Source of the DNA: Chromatiales bacterium
GTDB taxonomy: Bacteria > Pseudomonadota > Gammaproteobacteria > Steroidobacterales > Woeseiaceae
Assembly (NCBI GenBank): GCA_024679535.1
Contig: JAIBDF010000008.1
Location: forward strand, 1 to 41,999
Direction: 5' to 3'
DNA length: 41,999 nt
The position numbers and the translations under genes are program-made. The stretch's first letter is position 1. Each line of letters starts with the position of its first letter. Positions 1-27,277 of this stretch are shown here, one piece after another. The notes under the pieces are model-generated. The model was not told where the DNA came from, did no database searches, and worked only from the letters and a program-made list of their open reading frames with translations.

Positions 1-112
1 CAAGGAGGCGGACCTTGTTCGAAAAAACGCGCCAGCGTTTTAGACGCCGCAGGCGCCCGTTAGGGTGAAGATCGCCATAAGGCGATCTGAATCAATCCTG
101 TCGGGCGCGCCA
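1..112 (+). repeat. tRNA-Arg(CCG) 3'-half repeat, copy 1, T loop split by hairpins
   Basis: The right end (T-stem strand CCTGT, acceptor strand CGGGCGC at 102-108, G109, CCA at 110-112) matches the 3' end of gammaproteobacterial tRNA-Arg(CCG). The T loop is interrupted after TTCGA by successive hairpins: AAACGC/GCGTTT (25-30/35-40, loop GCCA), CGCC/GGCG (45-48/52-55, loop GCA), CCC/GGG (56-58/63-65, loop GTTA) and GATCGCC/GGCGATC (70-76/81-87, loop ATAA). The left part (1-24) is a diverged tRNA-like stretch. The 5' half of the tRNA is not in the window, so this is not a working tRNA here. It belongs to the same family as the copies at 918, 3005, 4111 and 27013. Confidence 0.75.
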
Positions 113-130
113 ACCTTTTCAAGGTGAAGA

Positions 131-175
131 CCGGTCACATGGTTTACACCTTATTCCGGGCACATGGCTAACACC
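131..175. repeat. Tandem 25-bp motif CCGGNCACATGGNTNACACC, IS-end-like
   Basis: Two units, CCGGTCACATGGTTTACACC at 131-150 and CCGGGCACATGGCTAACACC at 156-175, repeat with a 25-bp period right after tRNA-like copy 1. The same pair recurs after copy 4 at 4247-4291. Such tandem CACATGG motifs resemble transposase-binding ends of DDE insertion sequences (possibly IS481-like); no transposase belonging to them is visible. Confidence 0.5.
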
Positions 176-195
176 TTGTCCGGCACGAACGGATT

Positions 196-222
196 GGGGC
201 CGGGTTCTACCCGGCCCCTTTC
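196..222 (+). terminator. Strong GC hairpin followed by short T run
   Basis: GGGGCCGGGT (196-205) pairs perfectly with ACCCGGCCCC (209-218) around a TCT loop and is followed by a T-rich stretch on the plus strand. Nothing coding reads into it from the left except the tRNA-like repeat, so it may be the relic terminator of an ancestral tRNA transcript, or an end signal for the plus strand opposing the doc gene. Confidence 0.55.
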
Positions 223-274
223 ATTATCGAAATGTCTCGCGCCAGCATCATCGCCTGTCGAACCAACATCTTCT

Positions 275-661
275 TCACACGGTAGATATGTGCGCTTGAA
301 TCCACGTCAGGATTTTTTCGAACGAACGGTCGTTGGCCTCTAGCATTCCAATGATGAATTGTTCGCCTTCGTCGGCTCTAACCACTAGTTTCCAGCCATT
401 CAGGCGTAGAAAAATATCCGTCCCAAAGAAAGCGACACGCTTGTTGCCATCGACGAATGCGTGATTAACGAGAAGAGATTCAAACATTGCGGCCGCCATC
501 TCTTCAATATGCGTGTAGTAACCGGTTTGCGGTCGAAAAAGGGCACTTTCAAGAAGGCCCTGATCTCGCACGCCGTGGTCGCCACCAAAGCGCTCGATCA
601 AGCGCTCGTGAATCGCGAGCACCTCATCAAGGGACAGGAAGTCGACCGTGTTACCGGGCAA
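275..661 (-). CDS. doc: Doc-type (Fic fold) toxin
   Basis: A 128-aa protein of Doc/Fic family length. The Fic motif reads HAFVDGNKR at residues 67-75, with the His and the NKR that Doc uses to phosphorylate EF-Tu and stop translation (family knowledge). The only start in frame near the N terminus is TTG at 661, which overlaps the 3' end of the upstream antitoxin gene by 11 bp, so translation is probably coupled. Gene order antitoxin-toxin is the usual phd-doc order, but the antitoxin here is ribbon-helix-helix-like rather than classical Phd. It lies in a cassette between tRNA-like copies 1 and 2. Toxic activity is inferred. Confidence 0.88.
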   Translation of the reverse strand: MPGNTVDFLSLDEVLAIHERLIERFGGDHGVRDQGLLESALFRPQTGYYTHIEEMAAAMFESLLVNHAFVDGNKRVAFFGTDIFLRLNGWKLVVRADEGEQFIIGMLEANDRSFEKILTWIQAHISTV

Positions 662-863
662 GTCGGCGGCCTAGCTCTTCGTTCTCCTGGATAGAGTCTT
701 CGAGGTGATCCATCACGACAGGGCGCAGTCGGCGCTTCCGAACGTAGTCGCTGATTGCTTCAGTGAGCAGACCGGAAATGCTCTGATGGGACTCCTTTGC
801 GAGGTCCTGCAGTGCTTTCCAATGAGCTTGTTCGACTTTTGAGCTGATCTTTATGCTGGCCAT
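651..863 (-). CDS. Ribbon-helix-helix antitoxin of the Doc module
   Basis: A 70-aa protein whose first 45 residues have the pattern of a CopG/RHH DNA-binding domain: a short beta strand (ASIKISSKV) followed by two helices ending near YVRKRR. The acidic tail (DHLEDSIQENEELG) is probably the toxin-neutralising part. ATG start at 863; no clear Shine-Dalgarno. It directly precedes doc and overlaps it. Three 10-bp-spaced TATNTCAAG direct repeats lie just upstream at 874-900 and are the likely operator for autorepression. Exact family not certain. Confidence 0.8.
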   Translation of the reverse strand: MASIKISSKVEQAHWKALQDLAKESHQSISGLLTEAISDYVRKRRLRPVVMDHLEDSIQENEELGRRLAR

Positions 864-873
864 TTGGAGACCA

Positions 874-900
874 TATCAAGCTATGTCAAGATATGTCAAG
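874..900 (-). promoter_or_regulatory. Direct-repeat operator of the RHH-Doc module
   Basis: TATCAAG (874-880), TATGTCAAG (882-890) and TATGTCAAG (892-900) recur with 10-bp spacing, one helical turn, immediately upstream of the antitoxin start. Phased direct repeats are typical of cooperative RHH dimers. Assigned by position and periodicity. Confidence 0.6.
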
Positions 901-917
901 ATTATGCAGGTTGAACC

Positions 918-1043
918 CACCGAAGGCAGGGGTCACAGGTTCGACCCGAGACCGACGAAGTCGGTCGACGGACGCACGAACGCGGTGAGTGCGCCCTTTA
1001 GGGTGAGGGCCGTAGGCCCGAATCAATCCTGTCGGGCGCGTCA
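918..1043 (+). repeat. tRNA-Arg(CCG) 3'-half repeat, copy 2, with hairpins
   Basis: Begins in the anticodon loop (CCG at 920-922), then anticodon-stem strand GGCAG (925-929), variable region, ACAGG and TTCGA; resumes with AATCCTGT and acceptor strand CGGGCGC. Inserted in the T loop are GACCGAC/GTCGGTC (950-956/960-966, loop GAA), CGCAC/GTGCG (973-977/989-993, longer loop), CCC/GGG (994-996/1001-1003, loop TTTA) and GGGCC/GGCCC (1007-1011/1015-1019, loop GTA). CCA is replaced by TCA. It separates the Doc cassette from the ion-channel/nucleotidyltransferase cassette. Confidence 0.8.
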
Positions 1044-1155
1044 CTTTCTTTTTAATATCAATAATTTAGAGTTCTACCGGTCTGGGTTGGTGTCCTCGAT
1101 GGTGTCCGGGACACGCAGGGGACACAGCGGTAATACGGGTTCTGGTTGATGCCTT
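1026..1155. repeat. 130-bp duplicated segment, left copy
   Basis: Runs from the 3' end of tRNA-like copy 2 into the IS3 remnant. It matches 3066-3195 with only two mismatches (1099 A/G and 1137 G/A). It contains the self-complementary GTGTCCGGGACAC, probably part of an IS end. Confidence 0.9.
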
Positions 1156-1252
1156 TCTTGCGGCACAGCTCAGCAATACTGGATTCGCCGCGAAGGCCCT
1201 CCAACACAATCCGGATCTTTTCTTCTGCTGAATACTGCCGACGGGTTGCTCG
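1044..1252 (-). mobile_element. IS3-family remnant (OrfA fragment plus end)
   Basis: On the minus strand, 1252 to 1127 encodes an OrfA-like fragment containing RRQYSAEEKIRIVLEGLRG and the GINQN.YYR motif, characteristic of the helix-turn-helix N terminus of IS3-family transposases. It runs straight into terminal, non-coding IS sequence at 1044-1126. The rest of OrfA and all of OrfB are missing, so the element cannot move by itself. A second remnant with the same end is at 3084-3260. Confidence 0.7.
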
Positions 1253-1693
1253 ATGGATGTCTCGAAGTCGGAATTCTCGGAGTTTGTTGTCACGGTAGAG
1301 ATCAAGCGGCGTCCGCTGCACTTCCTGCTGAGTATCGTTTTCCCAATGGTCTTGCTGGTCAGCCTTACGTGGTGTGTCTTCTGGATGGATGGAGAAACGC
1401 TCGCTAATCGGGTGAATATTACGTTCGTCGGAATTCTTAGCGTGGTTGCGTATTACTTCGTAGTGCTAGGCCATGTGCCGGAGGTCAGTTATCTCACACT
1501 GATAGACGCATTCGTTCTTGCTACCTTTCTGATTCTTGCCGCCGGCGTCACACTGATTGTCGTTGTCGAACGTATTGGTGGATATAAGAACCCGGAGATT
1601 ATGGCCAGGGCCGACCGAGTCTGCAGGTGGGCATTTCCATTGGCCTAGCTGACTATCGCGACGTTGCTAGGGATTGTCTTTCTGCTCCTGTAG
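1253..1693 (+). pseudogene. Pentameric ligand-gated ion channel, transmembrane-domain remnant
   Basis: The reading frame encodes about 146 residues matching the membrane domain of bacterial pentameric (Cys-loop-type) channels: an IKRRP-like junction before M1, an M1 segment ending LTWCVFWMD, an M2-M3 part with the VSYLTLIDAF motif that typifies M3, then M3 and M4. The extracellular ligand-binding domain is absent; the frame starts exactly at the IS3 remnant. A TAG at 1646-1648 interrupts M4 and the homologous frame ends at 1691-1693. Truncation plus nonsense codon make this a pseudogene. Family recognition is from the motifs; no alignment was run. Confidence 0.7.
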
Positions 1694-1799
1694 CCCCTGC
1701 TTTGGTTGTAGCTGCCCCGGCGCGGACGCGCATATTCTTCTTCAGACTCGCGAAGGTAAGACGAGGTTGGTCTATGCACCTGCCGGGGTTTTATTACTC

Positions 1800-2828
1800 C
1801 TAAACCAATTTGCGTACCTCAGTGGCAACGTCCTGGTTCACGAGGTCGAGTCCGGCCTGAATCCTGTCCTGAAATGCCTTGTCCCTTTCCATGGCAGCGC
1901 GAAGCGCTAACGCAATATCACTCGGCCGAAGTTCAAGCAACGCTTGCAACACCTGCTCAGCCTGGCTCAGGTCCTTGCGAATCTTGGCAGCAGAGCTACT
2001 GCTTCGCATCTGGCTGATTGCACACTTGTGAATCGCAAATCTCCCCGGTGCTGGCACATTGATCATGATGCCGTGTCCGTACAAGAGTACGGCCGGCTGA
2101 ATGTCCTCAAGCAGGTAATCCAGGTGTCTCAACGGAGTTGCGTAGGTTCCAAAATGATCCAGCTTGACAGGTCGGGTGGTTTCCCGGCCGCGCATTGGAG
2201 CCAGCACATCCACACGAAAATCCCGATTGCGAATTCGAAATGACGTCGAAGGTTGTCTTGGGTTGAGAGTAGGTACCTCAATGAATCCCATTCCGCTGTC
2301 GAGGATCAGCTGCCCCAGATTTACAGGTGTCTTGGGTCTAGGCAACGCAAGCAGATATCGGTTGTCCATCGCGATATCGACGTCCTGTGTTCCGGCGTCG
2401 CTATGCCACGAAACACCGAGCATATTTGAGTACGCCCTGAACGCGAGTGTCCCGACCAACGCTGCGCCTGCCAGAAATACGCCGTTTCGTTCGAGCAACG
2501 TCAGGACTTTGCCCTCGTCTTTGCTCAGGGCAGACATTCCGCCGCCGATAAGCATGTTGACCAATCGGGTTCTCAGGTCTCGATCATCGACGTTGGATTG
2601 CCACAGCGCCTTTTCGTCGTCGATCCGGTCCAGGAGTTCGGTCGTTCCCTCGCCGAGATAGTGCTCCCTCCTCGTCTTACCGATGCTTATATAGAGATAC
2701 CAGTAGCGCTTTCTGTTGATGTCTTTGTACTTGAACGACAGGTTTGAGCCGTCCGATACTGGCTGGACACAGTTTTGCATCAGCTCGCTGTACTGCACCA
2801 TCAGGCTGTTCGGGAGGTCTTCTATCAA
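1800..2828 (-). CDS. GSU2403-type nucleotidyltransferase-fold protein (PF12281-like)
   Basis: A 342-aa protein. The nucleotidyltransferase-like core spans about residues 110-260, with LAGAALVGTLAF followed by TQDVDIAMD, which resembles the G[GS]-x(n)-DxD active-site arrangement of minimal nucleotidyltransferases, and a conserved VLLYGHGIMINVPAPGRFA block. Related families (AbiEii/MenT-type) act as toxins or phage defence, but this family has no settled function that I can cite. The start is uncertain: TTG at 2828 is the longest, ATG at 2801 is an alternative. Two perfect inverted repeats lie upstream. A decayed second copy of the same gene family is at 13245-13395. Confidence 0.75.
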   Translation of the reverse strand: MIEDLPNSLMVQYSELMQNCVQPVSDGSNLSFKYKDINRKRYWYLYISIGKTRREHYLGEGTTELLDRIDDEKALWQSNVDDRDLRTRLVNMLIGGGMSALSKDEGKVLTLLERNGVFLAGAALVGTLAFRAYSNMLGVSWHSDAGTQDVDIAMDNRYLLALPRPKTPVNLGQLILDSGMGFIEVPTLNPRQPSTSFRIRNRDFRVDVLAPMRGRETTRPVKLDHFGTYATPLRHLDYLLEDIQPAVLLYGHGIMINVPAPGRFAIHKCAISQMRSSSSAAKIRKDLSQAEQVLQALLELRPSDIALALRAAMERDKAFQDRIQAGLDLVNQDVATEVRKLV

Positions 2829-2841
2829 TGTTCGGTGCCTG

Positions 2842-2877
2842 TTTTATACCGTAATTAATTGATATTGCGGTATAAAA
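2842..2877. promoter_or_regulatory. Perfect inverted repeat TTTTATACCG/CGGTATAAAA
   Basis: Ten-bp arms at 2842-2851 and 2868-2877 with a 16-bp AT-rich spacer, immediately upstream of the nucleotidyltransferase gene. Shares the half-site TTATACCG with the repeat at 2945-2976. Likely operator for an unidentified repressor. Confidence 0.65.
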
Positions 2878-2944
2878 TAATATGTTGTTTTACAACCTAT
2901 TTATTGGATTTTTCACCCAAAAAGTGCCTCAAGAATAGCATGGT

Positions 2945-2976
2945 TTATACCGCAGTCATAATTGTTTGCGGTATAA
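2945..2976. promoter_or_regulatory. Perfect inverted repeat TTATACCGCA/TGCGGTATAA
   Basis: Ten-bp arms at 2945-2954 and 2967-2976 with a 12-bp spacer. It lies about 100 bp from the similar repeat at 2842-2877 and 10 bp before a possible ATG at 2986 that is cut off by tRNA-like copy 3. The pair looks like a two-operator intergenic region of a once divergent gene pair. Confidence 0.65.
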
Positions 2977-2985
2977 GGTGGTCGT

Positions 2986-3004
2986 ATGCAGATTGACGAC
3001 TACA
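2986..3004 (+). pseudogene. Possible start of a gene truncated by the tRNA-like repeat
   Basis: ATG at 2986 follows AAGGTGG at a plausible Shine-Dalgarno distance and is divergent from the nucleotidyltransferase gene. Only about six codons remain before tRNA-like copy 3 begins at 3005. A partner or antitoxin gene may have been lost here; this is inference from promoter layout only. Confidence 0.3.
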
Positions 3005-3083
3005 CTCCGAAGGCAGGGGTCACAGGTTCGATCCGAGGAGCGAAGCGAGGACAGGCCGAAGGCCCATCCTGTCGGGCGCGTCA
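3005..3083 (+). repeat. tRNA-Arg(CCG) 3'-half repeat, copy 3, shortest insert
   Basis: Starts exactly with the seven-base anticodon loop CTCCGAA (3005-3011), then GGCAG, GGGTC, ACAGG (3022-3026), TTCGA (3027-3031); resumes at 3066 with ATCCTGT and CGGGCGC (3073-3079), G3080. The T-loop insert (3032-3065) contains GCGAAGC, the sequence of a well-known very stable DNA mini-hairpin, and GGCC-GAA-GGCC (3054-3064). It separates the nucleotidyltransferase cassette from the HigBA cassette. Confidence 0.82.
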
Positions 3084-3195
3084 CTTTCTTTTTAATATCA
3101 ATAATTTAGAGTTCTACCGGTCTGGGTTGGTGTCCTCGGTGGTGTCCGGGACACGCAGGGGACACAGCGGTAATACAGGTTCTGGTTGATGCCTT
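3066..3195. repeat. 130-bp duplicated segment, right copy
   Basis: Matches 1026-1155 with two mismatches and continues into the second IS3 remnant. The near identity implies recent duplication or gene conversion compared with the much more diverged hairpin inserts just upstream of each copy. Confidence 0.9.
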
Positions 3196-3260
3196 GTTTG
3201 GTCCGACTACCGCTGACGGCGCACACAATGGGCCTGGCAGTACTGGATTTCAGGCGTGCA
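3084..3260 (-). mobile_element. Second IS3-family end remnant
   Basis: Carries the same IS end and the minus-strand GINQN.YYR codons as 1044-1252. Beyond 3195 homology to the first copy becomes patchy (a CAGTACTGGATT segment near 3238 parallels CAATACTGGATT near 1171). No transposase frame remains. Confidence 0.55.
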
Positions 3261-3293
3261 GAAATCGGACTGCCGGAAAACTGCCGGGAATAG

Positions 3294-3626
3294 TTACTTA
3301 CGAGCGGATTTGGAACGAGACTTGATCGGGCGCGTTGCAAAGTCAATTCCGCATGCTGTTAGCAAGGAATGATAAGTAGTAAATGATGTACGTGTTTCTG
3401 GTTTCAGCGTCTTGAAAACAGTGACGCGATTTACACCGGCGGCAGCCGCAACTTTGCCGACTCCGCGAGCGCGAATAACGTCCGCAACGGCAGTCTTGAA
3501 TACAACTTCGTCACCTTCAAGAAGCGCTTCATTGACGTACGCAGCAGCATACGATGGATCCCGAAGATCCTCGTAGAGCTTCTCTTTCATATTCCACGAT
3601 GCTGCCGCCTTGATTTTTTTACTCAC
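3294..3626 (-). CDS. HigA-like antitoxin (HI1420-type antidote)
   Basis: A 110-aa protein with a C-terminal helix-turn-helix (GVGKVAAAAGVNRVTVFKTL) and an N-terminal DPSYAAAYVNEALLEGD segment typical of the probable addiction-module antidote family that pairs with Gp49/HigB-like killers. GTG start at 3626 overlaps the toxin stop by 8 bp (GTGAGTAA). Toxin-first order is characteristic of higBA. It presumably binds the inverted repeat at 3959-3980. The cassette lies between tRNA-like copies 3 and 4. Confidence 0.85.
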   Translation of the reverse strand: MSKKIKAAASWNMKEKLYEDLRDPSYAAAYVNEALLEGDEVVFKTAVADVIRARGVGKVAAAAGVNRVTVFKTLKPETRTSFTTYHSLLTACGIDFATRPIKSRSKSARK

Positions 3627-3942
3627 TGTTTCGTTCCCGAAAATTTTTCAATCTTTCTCTCGCTCGTTCTATAGCTCGCCTCTGATCGCTTTTCCCTGAG
3701 CCACCGAGCAAAAGCATAATTGTTCCGTCGACGTTTGCGAAATAGACTCTCAGGCCGATGTGGCCTGCCAATCGCATTTCGTACAAGCCGTTTCTCAGTG
3801 AAGAGCAGTCTCCCAGGTGGTTATGTTCTTCGACGGCGCGTAATCGTCTTCTGACAGAAGCCTGGCGCCGACCATCCAATCGCTCGAACCATTCAAGAAA
3901 TGGCCGTCGCCCCAAATCCGTTTCGTATACCAGCAACTTCAT
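3619..3942 (-). CDS. HigB/Gp49-type addiction-module killer protein
   Basis: A 107-aa basic protein of the RelE/ParE superfamily, Gp49-like branch: LEWFERLDGRRQASVRRRL in the first helix pair, LRNGLYEMRLAGHIGLRVYFA in the central sheet and a LLLGGSGKSDQRRAIERA end. Family members are mostly mRNA interferases. ATG start at 3942. It precedes and overlaps the antitoxin. A perfect inverted repeat and a TATAGT -10-like box lie directly upstream on the minus strand. Confidence 0.87.
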   Translation of the reverse strand: MKLLVYETDLGRRPFLEWFERLDGRRQASVRRRLRAVEEHNHLGDCSSLRNGLYEMRLAGHIGLRVYFANVDGTIMLLLGGSGKSDQRRAIERARERLKNFRERNSE

Positions 3943-3958
3943 CGACGATACTATAGGG

Positions 3959-3980
3959 GATGTTGCCTACAGGCAACATC
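3959..3980. promoter_or_regulatory. Perfect inverted-repeat operator of higBA
   Basis: GATGTTGCCT (3959-3968) and AGGCAACATC (3971-3980) form a perfect 10-bp inverted repeat with an AC spacer. On the minus strand it sits just upstream of a TATAGT box, so a bound antitoxin would cover the -35 region. Confidence 0.7.
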
Positions 3981-4110
3981 AGAGAAACTCGGGGATTGTG
4001 TGAGATTTGTGTGACTGAGTGGTGCACGGTTGTGATGAGTACTGCAGTCGCAATGGGCGCCCTTCCAATTAGTGTTAATTAATTCAGTTGCTTACGATTG
4101 AAATAGCGTA

Positions 4111-4229
4111 CTCCGAAGGCAGGGGTCACAGGTTCGATCAATCGCGAAGCGATTAAGATGCACGAAGTGCGCCCCGCAGGGGTGAAGATCACCATTAGGC
4201 GATCTGAATCAATCCGGTCGGGCGCGCCA
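4111..4229 (+). repeat. tRNA-Arg(CCG) 3'-half repeat, copy 4, with hairpins
   Basis: Starts with anticodon loop CTCCGAA (4111-4117) and ends with CGGGCGC (4219-4225), G4226 and CCA (4227-4229). The T-loop insert contains AATCGC/GCGATT (4140-4145/4149-4154, loop GAA), GCAC/GTGC (4160-4163/4167-4170, loop GAA), CCCC/GGGG (4172-4175/4179-4182, loop GCA) and GATCACC/GGCGATC (4187-4193/4198-4204, loop ATTA, one mismatch). The distal T-stem strand has CCGGT for CCTGT. It closes the accessory array. Confidence 0.82.
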
Positions 4230-4246
4230 TTTTCATCGGGTCCGTT

Positions 4247-4291
4247 CCGGGCACATGGGTTACAGGTGATTCCGATCACATAGGTAACACA
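4247..4291. repeat. Tandem 25-bp CACATGG motif, second site
   Basis: CCGGGCACATGGGTTACAGG (4247-4266) and CCGATCACATAGGTAACACA (4272-4291) repeat the motif seen at 131-175, with the same 25-bp period and the same position relative to a tRNA-like copy. Probably an IS end or a shared outer boundary of the array. Confidence 0.5.
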
Positions 4292-4310: not shown

Positions 4311-4515
4311 CCACCCGCAGCAGCCTCCCGTAGCGGCCAAGCGTGTGGACGGCATTCTCGAAGAGAATAGTGATGTCGAGCACGAAGTTGCGATCCTCCG
4401 TCGACAAGTCCTGCTCCGATTCGAAGTAGTTGTGGCGAATCTTCGTCATCATTGCGGAGCGTTTGGTATTGAAGTGGCTGATTTTGCGGCGTACGGGCGA
4501 TACAAGATCACCTCA
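4311..4515 (-). pseudogene. Unrecognised protein-coding remnant
   Basis: On the minus strand a frame of about 67 codons ends with TGA at 4311-4313 and reads through TKIRHNYFESEQDLSTED and FENAVHTLGRYGRLLRVV, which has a protein-like composition (about 46 residues from the tandem ATGs near 4450). No ribosome-binding site is evident, the frame is closed upstream by a stop near 4516, and I do not recognise a family. It could be a short real gene, or the tail of a transposon gene next to the 25-bp motifs. Confidence 0.3.
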
Positions 4516-13524: not shown

Positions 13525-13613
13525 TCCCACTGATAAAGGCAAACCCGTTGAAAGACGGGGACGCAAAACCACCGGTCTAAGGACGAGAATCGTCTAGGAC
13601 AGCGGAGTCGCCA
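13525..13613 (+). ncRNA. Cyclic di-GMP-I (GEMM-I) riboswitch
   Basis: The conserved GEMM-I elements appear in order: AAAGGCAAACC (from 13534), the hairpin closed by a GAAA tetraloop (GAAAGACGGGG), GACGCAAAACCACCGG, then TAAGG...AGGACAGCGGAG and GTCGCC. Order, spacing and sequence fit the class that binds c-di-GMP. GGAG at 13604-13607 lies inside the 3' part of the aptamer and 7 bases before the ATG at 13615, so ligand binding probably controls translation directly. Confidence 0.88.
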
Positions 13614-13614
13614 G

Positions 13615-14436
13615 ATGAAGCTCGAAGATTCAGGGTTACGGAGACAACCGTTTCAAACCCACGGGAAGCCAATAGTGCTGGTCCCGTACGCGTCGCAGAA
13701 AGCCGCAATCCGGTTTCTCAACGAAACGCGTTTTAATGACCACGGCCTGGGCCTGTTTCATGGCCCGCCTCTGTCTGGCAAAACCTCCGCCATTCGACAA
13801 TTCACAACCCTGCTGCCGGACGACTACGCCGTTGCCGTTGTCGACGGCGCGGACAGGGACCCGAAAGCGTTCTTGCAGGAAATCCTGAGCCAGTTCGGGT
13901 ACGACCTCGGCCTCGAATCCGCCAACGAGCACTTCAGTATGGTCAGGGTTTTCGCCATGCAACAGACGGTCAGTGCCCAGGCTCCGTTGCTCATCGTCGA
14001 AAATGCGCATGCGATGAAACCGGTTCTATTGGACGTGCTTTGTGAGCTCGCCGAATTGACGGCCAACGGGAAAATGGCCCTGCGGATTGTTCTTGTGAGC
14101 GACCGGCCAATGCTGCCCATTGTCCAGGCACCGGCCATGCAATCCATAGCGACTCGCGTAACCGGCAAGTTTCTGCTGCAGCCATTGAAGCGGAAAGAAA
14201 CGGCTAACTACATTCACAAGAAGCTCGCGAGCGGCGGCTGCCACAACCCTCGGTCCCTCATACCGATGACCGTCTGCGATTGCTTGCACATAGCATCCAG
14301 CGGCTGGCCCGGTGTGATTGACCGCATGGCCATGATGGCCCTGGCCAAGGCCGAACATTTCCCTTTGCGCGCCGATCACATTCCCCGGCCGGCGACAACA
14401 AATCACAAATTACTTGTACCAAGGAGAGTGTCATGA
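13615..14436 (+). CDS. ExeA/GspA-like AAA ATPase under c-di-GMP riboswitch
   Basis: A 273-aa ATPase of the short ExeA-like (AAA_22) type. Walker A is GPPLSGKTS at 50-58 and Walker B is PLLIVEN at about 124-130, followed by AHAMKPVLLDVL. There is no peptidoglycan-binding or membrane domain, unlike full ExeA/GspA. The ATG at 13615 directly follows the riboswitch aptamer. Its stop overlaps the start of the OmpA-like lipoprotein gene (ATGA), so the two are translationally coupled. Envelope or exopolysaccharide/secretion work is an inference from its partner and c-di-GMP control. Confidence 0.85.
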   Translation: MKLEDSGLRRQPFQTHGKPIVLVPYASQKAAIRFLNETRFNDHGLGLFHGPPLSGKTSAIRQFTTLLPDDYAVAVVDGADRDPKAFLQEILSQFGYDLGLESANEHFSMVRVFAMQQTVSAQAPLLIVENAHAMKPVLLDVLCELAELTANGKMALRIVLVSDRPMLPIVQAPAMQSIATRVTGKFLLQPLKRKETANYIHKKLASGGCHNPRSLIPMTVCDCLHIASSGWPGVIDRMAMMALAKAEHFPLRADHIPRPATTNHKLLVPRRVS

Positions 14437-26942: not shown

Positions 26943-27012
26943 GCCGGGATCATGGTTATTTTTTTATTTTTGCGACCGCCGATACGAACCTGTTGAGTGT
27001 GCCGCCCAGGGA

Positions 27013-27096
27013 GGCGATCTGAATCAATCCTGTCGGGGCCGCTTTCGCGCATCCCTGCGCTGCGCGGCACTCGTGCATCCTGCACATCGCGCGCCA
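27013..27096 (+). repeat. tRNA-Arg(CCG) 3'-end repeat, copy 5, rearranged
   Basis: GGCGATCTGAATCAATCCTG starts at 27013 and matches the end of copies 1 and 4 (hairpin arm, T-stem strand, then TCGGG). The acceptor strand is then interrupted by about 50 bases before GCGCGCCA resumes at about 27089. The insert holds GCGCA-TCCC-TGCGC (27047-27060) and GTGCA-TCC-TGCAC hairpins (27073-27085); read on the minus strand the second loop is GGA, a GNA triloop. CGAACCTGT at 26996-27004 is the reverse complement of ACAGGTTCG. It lies far from the array at 1-4300. Confidence 0.6.
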
Positions 27097-27277
27097 TTTT
27101 CTTCGTCTGAAGACGTGTAAGTAGTTGTTTGTTAGTTAACGACTGGAGACGCCCGTCGACGACGTATCTGGATGAAGCACGACCGAGCTCAGCTAACTCC
27201 GGCAAGAATCCGGCAAGAGCCATTCATTTAGTGGGCACCGCTTTGTGCCACAAGCCCGGCTTGCGGATAACCCCGCA

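Follow-up and report, generated by a model that had tools for sequence, protein, structure and literature searches.

tRNA-linked repeats (TLRs) were first described in 1978, and earlier work on them by Egan and Landy (1978) and by Bosl and Kersten (1991/1994) is cited in PMC8144298. According to that source, Escherichia coli K-12 holds 22 TLRs, at one to five per locus, each repeating 18-19 bp from the 3' end of the tRNA or rRNA gene that lies upstream. Their function is there given as unknown until the study of its rrn-linked members, for which in vitro interaction with Hfq and CsrA is reported, and three of which in E. coli are reported to be transcribed and processed to a small RNA. The repeats of the E. 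coli tyrT locus, the first to be described, constitute the archetype of the Rfam family RtT (RF00391) and are annotated as a small RNA, rttR. Cis-mobilizable elements (CIMEs), as described in PMC5704250, are segments bounded by attachment (att) sites that have lost their integration genes and are stacked at one site.

Here we analysed contig JAIBDF010000008.1 from the draft genome (3.49 Mb) of a Chromatiales bacterium of the Woeseiaceae (assembly GCA_024679535.1); this entire contig, of 41,999 nt, is referred to below as the window. Its left end carries four direct fragments of the 3' part of tRNA-Arg(CCG), in each of which the T loop is split by hairpins. We consider it probable that two known processes meet at this locus, namely tRNA-linked repeats of the RtT kind and a decayed integration array at tRNA-Arg(CCG). 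Judged by sequence, the hairpin repeats are divergent and strongly expanded members of the TLR family (RF00391, RtT), a known family in a new setting. What is new is that the repeat is also present in tRNA copies of nearly full length and in 3' halves starting at the anticodon loop; among open-licence papers, no report was found of RtT or TLR repeats on integrase half-sites or in the Woeseiaceae. The four copies are given below with their scores against R1, a covariance model built from five relatives.

4..112, + strand: copy 1, a TLR/RtT-like repeat of the downstream type (29.5 bits); TTCGA at 18-22, hairpins at 24-41, 45-55, 56-65 and 69-88, then the T-loop end and the CCA-bearing tRNA 3' end at 89-112
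918..1043, + strand: copy 2, an att-type tRNA-Arg(CCG) 3' half from the anticodon loop (86.1 bits); TTCGA at 940-944, four hairpins in the T loop at 950-966, 973-993, 994-1003 and 1007-1019
3005..3083, + strand: copy 3, an att-type 3' half with a short insert (34.8 bits); TTCGA at 3027-3031, two hairpins, one with GCGAAGC and the other GGCCGAAGGCC (GGCC/GGCC) at 3054-3064
4111..4229, + strand: copy 4, an att-type 3' half (53.1 bits); TTCGA at 4133-4137, four hairpins at 4140-4154, 4157-4171, 4172-4182 and about 4186-4205

All four copies, and the stems quoted for them in an initial annotation made from the sequence, were present at the positions claimed. The first-hairpin stems were AAAACGC/GCGTTTT in copy 1 (24-41), GACCGAC/GTCGGTC in copy 2 (950-966) and AATCGC/GCGATT in copy 4 (4140-4154); GCGAAGC also occurs in copy 4, and an encoded CCA ends copies 1 and 4. 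The statement that the copies begin in or near an anticodon loop reading CTCCGAA held for copies 2-4, with copy 2 reading CACCGAA, and failed for copy 1, inside which the contig starts. Leftward identity to tRNA-Arg(CCG) covered 23 of 24 nt in copy 2 and 22 of 22 nt in both copies 3 and 4, whilst identity at the 3' end extended over 15, 15 and 18 nt in copies 2, 3 and 4, respectively.

Relationship of the repeats to RtT

The E. coli tyrT locus gave four RtT matches of 132.9-137.5 bits. Its repeats run in the order AAGGTTCGA, hairpins including CGTTGCC-GCA-GGCAACG, CCC-GAA-GGG and AGCGC-GCA-GCGCT, then GAGTAATCC and the tRNA end; that is, a T-loop start, hairpins with mostly GNA loops, a T-loop end and a tRNA 3' end. 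The repeats studied here share the T-loop start, the GNA-loop hairpins in the same order, a CCCGAAGGG-type third hairpin, GA(A/G)T-AATCC, the tRNA 3' end and, for part of the copies, the position after a tRNA. A tandem GA motif, mentioned for RtT in PMC7657543, is likewise shared (32 of 122 copies here). As points of difference, the window sequences are too distant for the Rfam model, the flanks of the repeats match Arg, Ser, Glu, Met, Gln and Pro tRNAs, and copies are found both at attachment half-sites and within almost complete tRNA copies.

R1 matched all four tyrT repeats (15.3-24.1 bits) and nine of the ten loci found by RF00391. An Rfam scan of 11 sources placed RtT on locus L162 at 54.8 bits, above the cut-off of 45, and weakly on L182, L129, L249 and L141. 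The repeats beside the E. coli tRNA-Arg genes argZ, argV and argQ, which have the same anatomy, scored 31, 29.2 and 22.8 bits with RtT (E 0.0056, 0.016 and 0.58), all under the cut-off. At the order level, at least 18 of the 55 listed RF00391 matches overlapped R1 places (51 listed R1 places compared), and at the class level at least 17 of 55 R1 places outside G000 and G109 overlapped listed RF00391 matches; RF00391 itself reached 80 of 369 genomes of the class and 34 of 296 of the order (E<=0.01). The anatomy shared with E. coli tyrT and the overlap of R1 with RF00391 led us to reject a new class of element, and the initial annotation's view that no element of this kind had been described is not supported, since R1 matches E. 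coli tyrT and RF00391 matches relatives.

The 3' ends agree with the wider TLR family. In the TLRs of E. coli, identity to the 3' end of the linked tRNA or rRNA extends over 18-19 bp (PMC8144298), and here 18 nt was the commonest 3'-end identity to a tRNA in att-type and downstream copies. The described TLRs follow their gene, whereas here 24 of the 53 copies near a tRNA precede it and others border cassettes.

Tandem RtT-like repeats spaced 168-213 bp apart, an arrangement also seen in E. coli tyrT, were observed at L215 (G021:C29), at L266 (G276:C1:491283-491814) and at G431:C23:54253-54912.

Hairpin structure, distribution and tRNA context

R1 matches (E<=0.01) were obtained in 95 of 149 relatives, including the genome of the window and the founders, which match by construction, with up to 21 places per genome; at E<=1e-4, matches were found in 28 of 369 genomes of the class. 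The 27-base stretch from anticodon loop to T loop (up to three mismatches) occurred in 46 of 99 genomes, again including that of the window, and most copies read from this search proved to be hairpin-free halves or intact tRNA genes. When named genomes were scanned for the split form, 21 stretches were obtained; L131, L134, L143 and L146 among them were runs of ordinary tRNA sequence. The remaining split copies belonged to Woeseiaceae, to unclassified Gammaproteobacteria or Proteobacteria, to one member of the Ectothiorhodospiraceae and to one Salinisphaera, several lying on contigs already represented. Plasmids gave only two short matches, and the viral contigs with the 20-base pattern amounted to five records, four with another tRNA as context and one (L083) a hairpin-free displaced copy.

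Structure and context were examined in 122 R1 matches from 100 sources in 51 genomes. A hairpin count independent of the model alignment, made in the 121 distinct copies, found 228 GNA loops among 305 triloops, compared with a mean of 4.9 (maximum 11) among 61 triloops in 50 dinucleotide shuffles. Strict counting gave three hairpins in 53 copies, two in 28, four in 19 and one in 10. In hairpin 4, 32 copies had tandem G.A/G.A and 80 had two standard pairs at that place. Copy 1 is outside the covariation set, in which 93.1% of cells were paired, 24 of 24 pairs had changed on both sides and the covariation score was 0.486, a value that fell to 0.131 in shuffles and did not exceed 0.068 when slid, with none of 500 shuffles reaching the observed values; these figures are generous in that the alignment was fitted to the structure, and part of the T-stem variation comes from each copy's own tRNA. 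The initial annotation's description of GNA-loop hairpins at a single T-loop position with strong compensatory variation is borne out, and the copies form a family, not the few non-covarying copies that it would have taken as a sign of simple attachment-site decay.

Two broader features were considered and rejected. GNA hairpins with stems of at least 6 are not a general feature of the region, the window holding four (0.8 in shuffles), of which two lie in the copies and the remaining two at 4354 and 5855. Nor is an acceptor-like minihelix general to the repeats, a score of at least 14 being reached in 8 of 37 downstream-type copies, compared with 4% of mismatched controls.

A tRNA predicted by ARAGORN on the same strand lay within 100 nt of 53 of the 122 copies, with 14 isoacceptors represented, and none was found on the opposite strand. 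Twenty-nine of these copies follow the tRNA (23 by 57-79 nt) and 24 precede it (20 by 0-43 nt). The flanking tRNA pieces match the six tRNAs named above, and leftward identity, measured in copies with a TTC match near the start, fell into three groups with some copies between: about 22 nt (to the anticodon loop), about 48-69 nt (near full length) and 0-10 nt, the last resembling E. coli tyrT. Rightward identity was mostly 18 nt in the 22-nt and 0-10-nt groups and shorter in most near-full-length copies. The cores failed to group by host tRNA or by genome, with category mean identities of 0.44-0.57 (93 of 122 copies), and some were 84-91% identical between different tRNAs and genomes.

This lineage offers abundant TLRs at many tRNAs, with strong covariation. 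Their contexts are of three kinds: copies that follow a tRNA, near-full-length copies that precede one, and copies on integration half-sites. The set is far more diverse than that of E. coli alone, and would allow a proper structure model as well as natural experiments on the origin of the repeat and the importance of tRNA linkage.

Some tRNA-Arg genes were observed to be split by about 700 bp containing an open reading frame (ORF), at L147 (G105:C128:2452-3196) and L148 (G104:C227:4003-4722), and L341 and L350 have a similar 3' junction. By their motifs these interruptions look like group I introns, but no Rfam intron match reached the gathering score in L147, L148, L153 or L163.

Displaced tRNA-Arg(CCG) halves and probable attachment sites

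Across 37 distinct contexts of displaced tRNA-Arg(CCG), the last stem base was 40% identical to the gene and the first base of the anticodon loop 97%, a sharp left edge that was partly built in by the loop-starting pattern used to find them; one earlier stem base stood at 86%. Identity spanned 22-28 nt in these contexts when compared with 28 full-length genes. Entry into the set required 54 bases of left context and the motif TTCGA, so that hairpin copies with TTCGC or TTCGT are outside the 37. The same boundary was recovered by a T-arm/acceptor pattern independent of the loop, for which places with zero or one mismatch and those given as loci were examined. Its 65 loci comprised 53 full genes, 10 partial copies and two cut copies; all six partial copies of tRNA-Arg(CCG) started at the anticodon loop, the other four being other tRNAs or an interrupted tRNA. 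The R1 matches, likewise independent of the loop, gave a left-identity peak at 22 nt, and the anticodon-loop start lies 22 nt upstream of TTCGA, the entry point of the hairpins. Hairpins were present in 11 of the 37 displaced halves and absent from 26, after two of the 13 copies first counted as not intact (L097 and L113) had proved to carry point changes and no hairpins.

Of 18 genomes searched, five had a tyrosine integrase at a distance of no more than about 1 kb, from the tRNA-Arg(CCG) gene in G005, G010, G027 and G040 and from a displaced half in G023. Sixteen segments of 0.7-3.6 kb between adjacent att copies contained no integrase among the ORFs scanned, and two longer att-bounded segments, of 10.6 and 11.8 kb, each contained one. 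Direct att repeats that start inside a tRNA gene, by which a tRNA-targeted integrative or CIME array is recognised, were present. The displaced halves resemble what integrases specific for tRNA-Arg(CCG) would leave as attachment-site remnants, bounding small cassettes, and the array fits an accretion of decayed integrative elements as in CIMEs (PMC5704250), which are similarly att-bounded, stacked at one site and devoid of integration genes. It differs from them in that some att copies carry RtT hairpins.

The window itself has no intact tRNA, and no intact tRNA-Arg(CCG) was found among the 30 typed of the 32 tRNA hits in its genome. Because copy 1 resembles copies that in relatives follow an intact tRNA-Arg(CCG) and a terminator (L106, L111, L154 and L165) or, in L124 and L157, come after a displaced 3' half and a terminator, the missing gene or another displaced half probably lies just past the contig end. 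Three matches to the 20-base 5' part were found in this genome, all within the array, and the R1 search yielded one more copy, at contig C6.

The initial annotation had raised the possibility that the hairpins act as folded single-stranded DNA in recombination or replication; in one version of this idea they are sites, like integron attC, at which the cassettes are moved. Integron attC arrays combine small cassettes, a single site orientation, toxin-antitoxin-like cargo and structured sites, and the present array resembles them in its small cassettes, its att copies in one direction, several of its cargos and the predominance of GNA triloops. However, the site boundary here is the anticodon loop, at which the displaced halves begin, most of those halves are hairpin-free, many copies sit beside tRNA genes instead of between cassettes, and the E. 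coli counterpart is a small RNA locus. Recombination at a folded hairpin site, as in an attC array, is not what these observations indicate (the integron integrase IntI itself was not searched for); the proposed role gains no support from them, and we regard it as very unlikely. As GNA triloops are stable in DNA too, the hairpins might still have a role as DNA. It is also highly unlikely that the copies reflect plain attachment-site decay, with functionless hairpins produced by template-switch mutation in unused DNA. Displaced or duplicated tRNA pieces are released from tRNA selection, and template switching generates palindromes without selection; yet a fixed hairpin order, conserved linkers, GNA loops and the tandem G.A motif recur in many genomes and in E. 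coli, and pairing has been kept through stem changes at the tRNA-Arg(CCG) site of different genomes.

The behaviour of the cores bears on another explanation, that the hairpin core is a small T-loop-specific mobile element, moving in folded form, as DNA or RNA, and tolerated only at places that retain an intact copy of the tRNA. There is room for such mobility, since the cores group neither by host tRNA nor by genome; fragments of all six tRNAs carry the same core in their T loops, as do near-full-length copies, and identities of 84-91% link different tRNAs and genomes. Set against this, no enzyme was linked to the core and no empty and filled pair of one site was found, short linkers and palindromes easily give high identity by chance, and tandem duplication with gene conversion explains the same pattern, which leaves this explanation unlikely. 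An extended form, in which the RtT core is a T-loop-specific mobile RNA or DNA module spreading among tRNA genes of the Gammaproteobacteria and also locks arrays through the displaced attachment halves, appears quite unlikely. Were it true, excision of the array would fuse the tRNA 5' half with a 3' half split by hairpins; tRNA-Arg(CCG) would thereby be destroyed and the array could not be lost, and L141, a nearly full-length tRNA-Arg(CCG) with hairpins in its T loop, would be what such an excision leaves.

Under the preferred reading, the meeting of RtT-type repeats with a decayed integration array, each hairpin array would be a T loop split by usually four hairpins and followed by the last 18 nt or so of a tRNA. 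The repeats are probably co-transcribed with the neighbouring tRNA and adopt a multibranch RNA fold, with the T-stem as its closing helix, which tRNA-processing enzymes would probably release at the copied 3' end; transcription and processing are suggested here by analogy with E. coli. Tyrosine integrases specific for tRNA-Arg(CCG) would recombine at the anticodon loop, every integration moving the old 3' half downstream, and decayed elements would retain the displaced half-sites, leaving an array of small cassettes, several of them toxin-antitoxin-like. As the displaced halves would no longer be tRNA, their T loop would be free to carry the repeat's hairpins, which may have entered by exchange with repeats beside tRNA genes. 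L141 is possibly the expected product of recombination between a tRNA and a hairpin-bearing displaced half, one of several conceivable routes.

A number of observations weigh against this reading. RF00391 gave no match in the window at E<=10 and none in G000 at E<=0.01, hence membership of the family rests on bridging relatives. R1 missed one of the three E. coli tRNA-Arg repeats and scored another at only 4.2 bits, and its third tRNA-Arg match stretched into the adjoining tRNA. At E. coli rrnB, where a TLR has been described, and at proL and glyVXY, neither R1 nor RF00391 found RtT. Copy 3 has two hairpins instead of four, only 53 of the 122 copies have a same-strand tRNA within 100 nt, and the nearest tRNA is not always the matched one. 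An integrase adjoining the tRNA was absent in 13 of the 18 genomes searched, the array of the window is without an integrase, and the path by which hairpins reached the displaced halves is reconstructed by inference.

Cassette genes and other features of the window

The initial annotation had asked whether the copies flank gene cassettes, and they do so both in the window and in relatives. The cassettes between the four copies contain the following genes.

275..661, - strand: cassette 1, Fic/Doc-family toxin-like gene (Pfam Fic, E 7.5e-15)
651..863, - strand: cassette 1, small ribbon-helix-helix antitoxin-like gene (RHH_4, 18.7 bits, under the Pfam cut-off of 25; partner by position)
1058..1321, - strand: cassette 2, transposase-like remnant (HTH_Tnp_1, E 1.6e-7; similar DNA after copy 3)
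1253..1648, + strand: cassette 2, small ORF like the neurotransmitter-gated ion-channel transmembrane family (Neur_chan_memb, 32.4 bits)
1800..2828, - strand: cassette 2, nucleotidyltransferase NTP_transf_8 (Pfam, E 2.9e-46; same family in a cassette of G042)
3294..3626, - strand: cassette 3, addiction-module antidote dnstrm_HI1420 (Pfam, E 9e-14)
3619..3942, - strand: cassette 3, Gp49-like toxin gene (Pfam Gp49, 25.6 bits, cut-off 23.9)

The NTP_transf_8 gene could be termed a toxin only by analogy. Cassettes of relatives encoded DUF6036 nucleotidyltransferases in four cases (two of the four matches under the Pfam cut-off), a further NTP_transf_8, an AAA_14-DUF4143 gene and a pair resembling RelE/MqsA. 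Other cargo there comprised a subtilase and proteins with TPR and FG-GAP repeats, and several genes had no Pfam match. The copies also serve as markers of integration arrays at tRNA-Arg(CCG) in which toxin-antitoxin-like and defence-like cassettes occur.

The right flanks of copies 2 and 3 (1044-1160 and 3084-3200) are nearly identical over about 115 bp of the transposase-like remnant, and the hairpin types of the two copies differ. Directly after copies 1 and 4, at 121-180 and 4238-4290, there are motifs like insertion-sequence ends, presumably of the IS481 type.

Further to the right, a detached fragment of a copy was located at 27012..27041 on the + strand, comprising the end of hairpin 4, the T-loop end and the tRNA 3' strand. 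A second insertion, with hairpins of its own, lies inside the acceptor 3' strand at 27012-27099 (CGGGG...GCGCGCCA), and a similar one was seen in G109 (L184, near 1590-1630). A c-di-GMP-I riboswitch (13528-13615, + strand, 82.5 bits) is situated immediately before an ORF at 13615.

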